Assembly: GCA_027483535.1 (NCBI GenBank)
Contig: JAIXUN010000002.1
Coordinates: 310,001-374,000, forward strand
From: a bacterium
Lineage (GTDB): Bacteria > Armatimonadota > Fimbriimonadia > Fimbriimonadales > Fimbriimonadaceae
Direction of reading: 5' to 3'
Length of the DNA stretch: 64,000 bases
The notes under the pieces were generated by a model, which saw nothing but the letters and a program-made list of their open reading frames with translations, ran no database searches and was not told the DNA's origin. Every line of letters begins with the position of its first letter. Positions within the stretch are counted from its first letter, which is position 1. This document shows, piece by piece, positions 49,551-52,283 of the stretch. A program made the translations under genes and the position numbers.

Positions 49551-50639
49551 TTATCCCCGACCAACGGAGATGGTGCCCGGACCGCCTTCTGAACCTCGGA
49601 CCACGATGCGAACCGGGAGAAACTGTTTCATCACCCAGACAATGCTCAGGAGTCTCGGAGTGATCTCGGAAATTTTGAACTCCGAGAAGTTATCCGAGAA
49701 GCACGCCAAGAAGAGCACCGTCTCCGCGCTGAACGGATCGAGGGTGGCGTCTCCGGTCATCCAGTCAAAGGTGGCATCAAAAGCCTGTTGAACGATGGAT
49801 TCCACCCGAACCCCCTTGGCTCCGATCGCTCCGAATCCTGCGAGCCCACCTTTTCTGCCCGTTCCAGACTTGTTGCCCTCGTACTTCGTCCAAACCGTCG
49901 CGTACATTCCTGTTCCGTGGCCCGGAACATCCACCACGTCGATCTCGATGGGTAAATGGGCAGACTGCGCAAGCCGGGTGAGGTGATTCCTTGCCCGCTC
50001 ACCGATGCTGTGCTCCAATCGGCAGAGTGCAACAACTGCGTGTAATCCGGTTGGGCGCCCCCGCTCGGTCCATGTCAAACCTTGGAATGAGCAAGGTTCC
50101 ACCGCCATCGAAACCAGTCCGGCTTCATCGCGTGAGAAAGAACTTTGCTTCAGCTCTACTTCGGCGTACACGTTCATCGCCCTGGTGACGCCAAGGATGA
50201 CGTTCTCAAAGTAGTCGAAGCTGAGGCTCGCCCGGCCGTAAGTTTCACCTTCGATATTGATCTGCGAATACGCCCCGGATCGAGCCAGGACGGGAAGCAG
50301 CGTCGATAGGACGATGAGTGCGTTCGCGCCTCGACCGTTGTCGTTACGGTCGCTGACGAACGAACCCTCGAGTTTCTTGGGGAGACATTTTGGTGCGAAG
50401 AGTAACGACTGCGAGCCTATCTGGGCACCCGTAACGTCGGCATCGACACTGCGCGCAAGGGTTTTCGCGATGGTTAGGTCTTCCGCATCCAAGCCTGGGA
50501 ACTTGGTGCCTGCCCGAACGCCTTCAATGCGAACCGCTTGCTGGGTCATTGCCGCCATAACAAGAGCGGCCCTTACAATGGCTCCTCCCGCTTCGCCGTG
50601 CGACCCGTCGATGGTGATAATGCCGACGGTTCTTGACAT
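49551..50639 (-). CDS. RtcA-like RNA 3'-phosphate cyclase homologue lacking the nucleophilic His
   Basis: The 362-residue protein follows RtcA closely. IDGSHGEAGGAIVRAALVMA is the first conserved block, VDVPGHGTGMYATVWTKYEG is central, and GLAGFGAIGAKGVRVESIVQ follows. In RtcA the His that takes AMP is in the block SCHLLTNIAV before the Phe-Leu-Pro-Val-Arg; here the same block reads ITPRLLSIVWVMKQFLPVRI, so Arg329 stands in the His position. Without His it may be like eukaryotic Rcl1, which is RtcA-like but not a cyclase. The alignment is by eye. It starts immediately after the stop of the two-CW-like gene and probably belongs to the efp operon. Confidence 0.85.
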   Translation of the reverse strand: MSRTVGIITIDGSHGEAGGAIVRAALVMAAMTQQAVRIEGVRAGTKFPGLDAEDLTIAKTLARSVDADVTGAQIGSQSLLFAPKCLPKKLEGSFVSDRNDNGRGANALIVLSTLLPVLARSGAYSQINIEGETYGRASLSFDYFENVILGVTRAMNVYAEVELKQSSFSRDEAGLVSMAVEPCSFQGLTWTERGRPTGLHAVVALCRLEHSIGERARNHLTRLAQSAHLPIEIDVVDVPGHGTGMYATVWTKYEGNKSGTGRKGGLAGFGAIGAKGVRVESIVQQAFDATFDWMTGDATLDPFSAETVLFLACFSDNFSEFKISEITPRLLSIVWVMKQFLPVRIVVRGSEGGPGTISVGRG

Positions 50640-51707
50640 TTAGACCTTCAGGCGGAAGATGGCAAACTCAAGCACCTTGAGGGCATAAGTCGCAGCCACC
50701 ACCACAATGGTGAGAACCAAGAACTGGGTGAACCACTCACCCGTGGTGACATCCTTAATGGCTCCGCCCGTAGCGGTATTCATGGTGCTGCTTGCCGATC
50801 CGATCATTCGGTTGATCGCGTTAGCCGCAGGCTCACGAATGATGATGTAGAGCCCGACCGAAGAGAGCATCAGCAAAGGCAAAGAGAGTCGATACTTGTG
50901 CTTTTGGTGCTCGTTGTAGATCACGCAGTTGTAGCACCGCTCCTTTTTAGCGGAGTTGCTGATTTTGTTGTTTCTCGGGATCGCGGCCCCCGAAAGCAAG
51001 GCGTCTTTCGAAACCACCTTGTTCTCCATCGCGTTTCGAATGACCGATTCCTCGCACATGCAACCCACCAGTTCCTTCCAGCAGGTTCGCTTGGCGTGGA
51101 AGATCGGGCAGCGCTCGCGAACAAACTTTCGACAGTAGGGCAGTTGCCAGCATTTGCCCATGAAGACGTTCTGCTTGTCAGTCTCCTGCTTGATCCCTTT
51201 TCCGTACTTGAGCTGATCGGCTTTGGTGCCTTGGGTCGCGCGGTTCTTCACCCGAATGGTGATGTCGCCCACGAGAATCAGGAGCCCCAGGATGAGGGTG
51301 GAGATTCCAATGGATGAAACTCCGCTGACACCCGTATTGAAAGCGGGTGAACCCGCCCCGGTCCCGTTGATCGCAAGAGGGATCCAACTCGGAGCCAGGT
51401 AGAGACCGATTCCGAGGATGATGTTCGTCGCCACCATGATCTCCTCTTCCCAGAAGGTAAAGGCGGCTCCAATAACCATCAATACCGCACCCAGAATGCC
51501 AACTTGTTTGGCCTTCTCCATGTTGCCGATGAGGGTGGCGGCTACCTGAGGATCGGCGGCGGCTCGGTTGATGAGAATAAACAGAAAGGCGAGGGAACCG
51601 ATAAACACGATTGCCCCGCCGATCATCGCATAACGCGCGATGGTTGAACCCAAATCTCCAAGAAGGTCGGAAGACCCGTTTTCGTCCTTAAACGCGCGCT
51701 TGATCAT
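50640..51707 (-). CDS. Membrane protein with two-CW-like Cys-rich domain
   Basis: The 355-residue protein has about five membrane segments (YAMIGGAIVFIGSLAFLFIL, VGILGAVLMVIGAAFTFW, IMVATNIILGIGLYLAPSW, ISTLILGLLILVGDI, and C-terminal ones such as FLVLTIVVVAATYALKVLEF). Between the fourth segment and the C-terminal ones is a cytoplasmic or lumenal domain with eight Cys: GKCWQLPYCRKFVRERCPIF, then RTCWKELVGCMC, and later KERCYNCVIYN. The paired CW plus CP spacing resembles the two-CW domain, which can hold a metal or a cluster. Function unknown. It lies between efp and the RtcA-like gene, with 6 bp and 0 bp spacing. Confidence 0.75.
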   Translation of the reverse strand: MIKRAFKDENGSSDLLGDLGSTIARYAMIGGAIVFIGSLAFLFILINRAAADPQVAATLIGNMEKAKQVGILGAVLMVIGAAFTFWEEEIMVATNIILGIGLYLAPSWIPLAINGTGAGSPAFNTGVSGVSSIGISTLILGLLILVGDITIRVKNRATQGTKADQLKYGKGIKQETDKQNVFMGKCWQLPYCRKFVRERCPIFHAKRTCWKELVGCMCEESVIRNAMENKVVSKDALLSGAAIPRNNKISNSAKKERCYNCVIYNEHQKHKYRLSLPLLMLSSVGLYIIIREPAANAINRMIGSASSTMNTATGGAIKDVTTGEWFTQFLVLTIVVVAATYALKVLEFAIFRLKV

Positions 51708-51713
51708 AGAAGA

Positions 51714-52283
51714 TTATTTCTTGACTCTTTCAAGGTAGGCATCCGTTCGGGTGTCTACCTTAACAATATCGCCGATATTGATGTGGAAAGGCACTTGGAT
51801 TACCGCACCCGTTTCAAGGGTCGCGGGCTTCGTTGCGCCGCCACTTACCGTGTTGCCTCGCTCGCCGGGATCCGTTTGGGTCACCTCAAGCTCAACAAAG
51901 TTAGGTACTTCATATCCTAACACTTCGTTGTTCGCTTGTAGGCAAACGATTTCCATATCTTCTTTAAGGTACTGACCTTGATCGCCCAGCGATGACATTT
52001 CCACCGGAATCTGCTCGTAGGTGTCGAGGTCCATCAGGATCGCTTCCGAGTTCTGCTTGTACAGGAACTGCATCTTCAGCTTCTCCACAAAAGCAGGGTC
52101 GACCTTTTCACCGGATCGGAAGGTCTTTTCCAAGGTTTGTCCGGTGCGGACTTTGCGGAGTCGGGTGCGAACAAAGGCGCCACCCTTGCCCGGTTTGACG
52201 TGTTGGAACTCGATGATCGTCCAGACCTCTCCGTCCATGTAGAAGTTCAGACCGTTTCGAAAATCACTGGTATCGATAGCCAA
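51714..52283 (-). CDS. efp: Translation elongation factor P
   Basis: EF-P rescues ribosomes stalled at polyproline runs. The 189 residues match the three-domain length. The N-terminal domain has EVWTIIEFQHVKPGKGGAFV with the tip Lys33 in PGKGG, the position that is modified in many bacteria. Then come RTGQTLEKTFRSGEKV, the OB domains EIVCLQANNEVLGYEVPNF and the C-terminal GAVIQVPFHINIGDIVKVDT. No Lys-modification genes (epmA, epmB) are seen. It is the third gene of an apparent operon after purE and the SGNH esterase. Confidence 0.97.
   Translation of the reverse strand: MAIDTSDFRNGLNFYMDGEVWTIIEFQHVKPGKGGAFVRTRLRKVRTGQTLEKTFRSGEKVDPAFVEKLKMQFLYKQNSEAILMDLDTYEQIPVEMSSLGDQGQYLKEDMEIVCLQANNEVLGYEVPNFVELEVTQTDPGERGNTVSGGATKPATLETGAVIQVPFHINIGDIVKVDTRTDAYLERVKK

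Follow-up and report, generated by a model that had tools for sequence, protein, structure and literature searches.

A Fimbriimonadales family of RtcA-like proteins without the adenylate-forming histidine that may work like Rcl1

The genes considered here lie within a 64,000-nucleotide stretch of DNA (hereafter, the window) from a genome of the Fimbriimonadaceae. The features of interest, all on the minus strand, are as follows:

51714..52283, minus strand: gene for elongation factor P (efp), the first of a three-gene run (Pfam EFP_N, EFP and Elong-fact-P_C).
50640..51707, minus strand: gene for an unnamed Cys-rich membrane protein of 355 amino acids, the upstream neighbour of the RtcA-like gene (no Pfam or NCBIfam match).
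49551..50639, minus strand: gene for an RtcA-like protein of 362 amino acids without the adenylate-forming His, Fimbriimonadales family 'D' (Pfam RTC, AlphaFold2 model).
50478..50483, minus strand: codons of Glu53 and Asp54, which stand where RtcA has Gln51 and His52 (alignment).
49653..49655, minus strand: codon of Arg329, which stands where RtcA has His309 (alignment with canonical RtcAs and E. coli RtcA).

A first-pass annotation of this DNA had described an RtcA-like gene within an efp operon, and this arrangement was confirmed: the genes for EF-P, the membrane protein and the RtcA-like protein follow one another, and the TAA of the membrane-protein gene abuts the ATG of the RtcA-like gene. 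The RtcA-like reading frame likewise stands with its coordinates and strand as annotated, beginning with ATG, encoding 362 residues and matching Pfam RTC at 138.6 bits. The main point of the annotation was that the His that forms the adenylate in RtcA has been replaced by Arg329. Indeed, the R of ITPRLLS is residue 329 and lies opposite the HLLTN-block His of the E. coli and Pyrococcus horikoshii RtcAs. RtcA residues are numbered here as in the literature, one higher than in the E. coli RefSeq protein, where this His is residue 308.

A search for RtcA-like proteins in 291 genomes of the phylum found the divergent protein both in Fimbriimonadaceae (f1), the family of the window, with 83 of 85 genomes, and in a sister family (f2), with all eight; in another sister family (f3), 14 of 18 genomes have an RTC match, which is of the canonical type wherever it was read. 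The alignment of related genomes that the annotation had proposed as a check shows Arg in the H309 column of every readable f1 genome (79 of 79, with 69 in the first set and 10 added) and Thr in all eight f2 genomes (7/7 in the first alignment). All 76 canonical RtcAs from the phylum in which the column could be read have His309 (38 plus 38 added), and so do 59 of 59 RtcAs from outside the order, taken from the best 80 of 532 relatives in a scan of GTDB genomes; one of these 59 is labelled Armatimonadota and may be double-counted. Two f1 genomes (G115 and G147) are unread at this column, and the copies in two others (G124 and G146) stop before it. Among broken canonical copies, that of G019 was counted by its His-bearing piece, and the piece in G236 falls short of the column. 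Some of the 21 Fimbriimonadia loci in the range L123-L202 come from genomes counted before, and these were not added to the counts.

Because Arg recurs in all readable f1 genomes, from many separate assemblies, it is not a sequencing error, and the substitution at H309 is real, old and fixed. Read as a sign of changed function, as in the first-pass annotation, the Arg itself holds for f1, where it is fixed, but not for the f2 branch, which has Thr; what the two branches have in common is a conserved replacement of the catalytic His, which probably means a different job. The annotation had also named another His in the active site as an observation that would speak against its claim, and none is conserved. 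H14, which lies beside E16, was considered as a replacement nucleophile and rejected, being His in only 45 of 69 f1 and 6 of 7 f2 sequences and otherwise mostly Tyr or Phe.

The relatives from outside the order come from an alignment-based scan of genome contigs; a scan with a single sequence returned no relatives, and one scan of viral sequences gave no match. As far as found among the best 80 of 532 relatives, the divergent family is limited to two families of Fimbriimonadales. As the scan gave this best-scoring part of the relatives, RtcAs without the His may exist outside the order.

The statement that all RtcA blocks are present proved true of the fold and not of the active site, where R43, Q51 and H52 are replaced along with H309. 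Positions that hold one residue in at least 95% of 38 canonical RtcAs and another in at least 80% of 69 f1 sequences (type-II sites) number exactly six in f1: Q18A, Q51E, H52D, G124E, P131L and H309R. Three of these, Q18, G124 and P131, presumably line the adenylate pocket. At the place of Q51, Glu is found in 69/69 f1 sequences and Val, Ile or Met in f2, with Gln in 37 of 38 canonical sequences; at the place of H52, 68/69 f1 and 7/7 f2 sequences have Asp, and all 38 canonical sequences have His. R43 has been replaced in all 76 aligned members of the family, by various residues. The f2 sequences have lost R43, Q51, H52 and H309 as in f1, and they retain Q104 (six of the seven aligned), G124 and P131. 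Three acidic residues, E53, D54 and E132, are newly fixed in f1. Shared with RtcA throughout the family are E14 and R40 (76/76) and, in 75 members, R21; the D287 place is acidic (Asp or Glu) in every one of the 76 members, Q288 is mostly retained, and the G-x-G-E block is kept. The window copy is also replaced at Q18, Q104, G124, P131, D287 (to Glu) and Q288 (to Thr). Type-II sites and the conservation ranks given below were computed on the 69 f1, seven f2 and 38 canonical sequences, leaving out later additions.

According to PMC9048941, Q51, H52 and H309 are on the list of residues essential to the cyclase, and maize RCL1 lacks five of the seven residues essential for cyclisation, namely E14, R43, Q51, H52 and the His. 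The bacterial family has lost four of these same five (R43, Q51, H52 and the His) and, unlike the maize protein as described there, retains E14 (PMC9048941). Across the seven essential cyclase positions, the mean conservation rank in f1 is 30.9 of 352, and 0 of 100,000 random draws of seven positions were as low; the exception among them is R43, at rank 112. We take R21 and R40 to be the other two of the seven. Values of dN/dS are also low, at 0.014-0.159 in 10 of 15 close pairs with unsaturated dS (Nei-Gojobori), and the high conservation of the essential positions together with these values indicates that the ancestral pocket is still of importance. Purifying selection on the gene is strong. 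The sequence evolves quickly, with 39-49% identity within the window's own genus, as a decaying pseudogene or a sequencing artefact might show; against this, intact genes occur in many genomes, dN/dS is far below 1, and across the 83 of 85 f1 and eight of eight f2 genomes the frames are open except at contig ends and in split copies of a few drafts, so that decay or artefact has practically nothing left to recommend it.

An AlphaFold2 model of the window protein (mean pLDDT 93.3, from 21 sequences) gives the RtcA structure 4o89 as its best fold match, with the predicted structure superposing at Z 44.0 and 1.7 A over 339 residues with 29% identity. The model matches E. coli RtcA at Z 38.5-39.9 and Rcl1 at Z 33.1-35.2 (35.2 for 4clq), so the fold is common to all three. 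Sequence identity to Rcl1 in the structural alignments is 13-17%, and the family is bacterial; local alignments with Rcl1 end before the R329 column. Profile scores point the same way. The window protein reaches 179.7 and 169.9 bits against the two NCBIfam RtcA models (cut-offs 352 and, for TIGR03399, 250.05), and 6/6 family members tested fall below the TIGR03399 cut-off (170-215 bits), with 4/4 canonical proteins above it. Against the Rcl1 model TIGR03400 (cut-off 227.95), the window protein scores 24.9 bits, and of five further members one has no match and the others score at most 47.9 bits; in a profile comparison, RtcA scored 198.7 bits and Rcl1 45.7 bits. The protein thus has the RTC fold (PF01137) of an RtcA without its His309, R43, Q51 and H52 or its equivalog score, and the fold without nucleophile His of an Rcl1 without the Rcl1 equivalog score. 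The comparison with Rcl1 drawn in the first-pass annotation is apt for the residues that were lost, but by sequence the protein does not class as an Rcl1: it is nearer RtcA in sequence and predicted fold, keeps E14 and branches with the RtcA of its own order. EPSP synthase and MurA show a distant fold relation (Z ~13-14 over ~190-205 residues) but no full-length match to the RtcA-like protein. Their chemistry and residues are not known to be related to those of RTC proteins.

Full retention of the fold, together with E14, R21, R40 and mostly D287 and Q288, would also suit a protein that is still an RNA 3'-phosphate cyclase, in which ATP is attacked directly and no enzyme-AMP intermediate forms. 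We consider this improbable, given that R43, Q51 and H52 were lost along with H309 and that four f1 genomes (G080, G094, G131 and G155) and two f2 genomes (G067 and G071) hold a canonical RtcA in addition to the divergent protein, as expected if the two have different jobs. The canonical-type RtcA of G155 (L103) has all examined catalytic residues and a very long branch (1.81).

The origin of the family was examined in a tree of 76 sequences, from which residue X had been removed (19 of 69 f1, 7 of 7 f2, 35 of 38 canonical and 14 of 59 outside-order sequences, plus E. coli; no Rcl1 sequence was included). The divergent family forms a single clade (100/100), inside which f1 (100/99) and f2 (100/99) are each recovered. 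A branch with support of 100/97.8 has on one side the divergent family and the canonical RtcAs of four f1 and five f3 genomes, with weak branching order within that side (91/63). As the family lies on the same side of this branch as the order's canonical RtcA, it most likely descends from Fimbriimonadales' own RtcA; it is vertically inherited. The canonical RtcAs of the two f2 genomes (L004 in G071 and L029 in G067) group with Nitrospirota and other sequences at 97/96 and look horizontally acquired, beside a native divergent copy. In G071, the canonical rtcA adjoins an rtcB.

No rtcB neighbour was seen beside the divergent family members, unlike canonical RtcA. RtcB was matched in only 57 of the 85 f1 genomes; the RtcA-like gene is present in 26 genomes of this family that gave no RtcB match, among them G077, which is a single contig and 99% complete. 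A link to RtcB was rejected for the family on these counts and on distance, as the nearest pair on the same contig, by eye, is ~118 kb apart (G145). As a side observation, the RtcBs of the window genome and other f1 genomes are strongly divergent, with best matches scoring ~140-240 bits against PF01139 compared with 510-604 for most f3 copies, and at one locus (L225, G000:C1:1896300-1907400) the divergent RtcB adjoins a Trp/Tyr-type class I tRNA synthetase.

The arrangement seen in the window is common in f1. EF-P, the Cys-rich membrane protein and the RtcA-like protein are encoded together at 58 of 69 f1 loci, and six more have the membrane protein and the RtcA-like protein only (three of these end at the edge of the available DNA, and three are without EF-P within the 4 kb fetched), which brings the membrane-protein neighbour to 64/69. 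The remaining five loci lack both neighbours; in three of these genomes, EF-P and the membrane protein are paired elsewhere. In f2, CorC is encoded directly upstream at 7/7 loci, with an 8-base overlap in the two that were read (L092 and L097), and YbeY and/or DgkA precede CorC at six of the seven, as a ybeY-dgkA-corC run. YbeY has a role in rRNA maturation.

That a membrane-protein gene, abutting or overlapping, stands immediately upstream in both f1 and f2, although the two genes are unrelated, would fit a cytoplasmic ligand sensor that is co-translated with its membrane partner, the Cys-rich protein in f1 and CorC in f2. The partner differs between the two families, however, and the Cys-rich protein is spread across the whole phylum (269 of 291 genomes, and 108 of 113 within the order); such a partner or regulator is therefore an explanation to which we give little credence. 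Since most of the genomes with the Cys-rich protein are without the RtcA-like family, the former does not need the latter, and an obligate link between the two was rejected. The Cys-rich protein is helical, and eight Cys and several His do not vary in an alignment of ten of its sequences; its structure model is poor (pLDDT 65.3). It adjoins EF-P at f1, f2 and f4 loci and is a candidate for an Armatimonadota signature protein. Two small f1 genomes (G132 and G133, ~1.5 Mb, 97% complete) have neither the RtcA-like nor the Cys-rich protein, which suggests that both are jointly dispensable on genome reduction.

Taken together, these findings describe an RTC-family variant that may work like Rcl1. 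The nucleophile and the ATP-site residues were replaced in concert and the new residues are fixed, and RtcA-type adenylation has very probably been lost in the divergent family, judging from its residues. A protein that forms no covalent AMP would not carry out RtcA-type cyclisation. Its pocket has been remodelled rather than eroded and so presumably still binds something, most likely a phosphate ligand such as an RNA end: E14, R21 and R40, which were kept, could form a pocket for it along with the new Arg or Thr, and the new acidic residues E53, D54 and E132 together with R329 would disfavour ATP. With Rcl1 as a model, the protein might then be an RNA binding or assembly factor in or near the ribosome, not a repair enzyme. 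Rcl1 is the partner of Bms1 and a factor of small-subunit rRNA maturation. What lies behind the guess is operon context, EF-P in f1 and YbeY in f2, which makes a role in the ribosome or in translation a tentative proposal, somewhat weaker than an even bet. As a whole, the account in which a family derived from RtcA gave up covalent adenylyl transfer and has RNA at or close to the ribosome as its target, in the manner of Rcl1, is one that we hold with belief and doubt in equal measure. Its boldest form, a bacterial Rcl1 by convergence that would be central to ribosome assembly or to the quality control of translation and would use the former active site to read an RNA end, seems unlikely to us.

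Several observations weigh against this account. The linkage to EF-P may mean shared regulation only, the RtcA-like gene is away from efp in at least three f1 genomes, the direct partner in f2 is CorC and not YbeY, and the small genomes G132 and G133 do without the gene. Moreover, that E14, D287 and Q288 are mostly kept could mean that some catalysis persists. The main rival is an enzyme built on the RtcA scaffold whose pocket would catalyse a different reaction on an RNA or small-molecule phosphate, for instance hydrolysing 2',3'-cyclic phosphates, removing 3' phosphates or carrying out a transfer without a covalent intermediate; Arg329 may bind phosphate in such an enzyme, and the new carboxylates may act as a base or metal ligands. 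Pocket positions that are fixed and not drifting would suit it, as would the family-wide E14 and the acidic residue at the D287 place, the mostly kept Q288 and the newly fixed E53, D54 and E132 of f1. On the other hand, the scan for newly fixed residues gave no newly invariant His, Cys or Lys, the closest being K338 (Lys in 62 of the 69 f1 sequences and Arg in the other seven), and f1 and f2 differ at H309 (Arg or Thr) and at Q51 (Glu as opposed to Val, Ile or Met), which speaks somewhat against one shared new chemistry. We regard a new enzyme as possible but rather doubtful, and favour the Rcl1-like account.

For Rcl1 itself, PMC4914098 describes a requirement in 18S maturation, a mutation of the proposed RNA site that is tolerated in human cells and a claimed nuclease activity that was not reproduced, which has left the role of the protein less clear. 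What RNA cyclases act on in vivo is likewise described as still ambiguous (PMC9048941). In the bacterial family the same catalytic residues have been lost a second time, apparently independently, and the few genomes in which the old and the new protein coexist offer a way to compare the capacities of the RTC fold once adenylation is gone. None of the titles and abstracts of the open-licence papers searched describes a bacterial RtcA that lacks the His, and the two matches for Fimbriimonadia there use rTCA for the reverse citrate cycle. For annotation, a PF01137 match alone is not enough to call an RNA cyclase in Armatimonadota.

The window copy is itself among the most deviant members of the family. 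It carries a nine-residue Gly/Lys-rich insert (residues 255-263) that is found in none of the 75 other aligned members, and its residues 306-307 are Glu-Thr, where most members have Asp-Gln.
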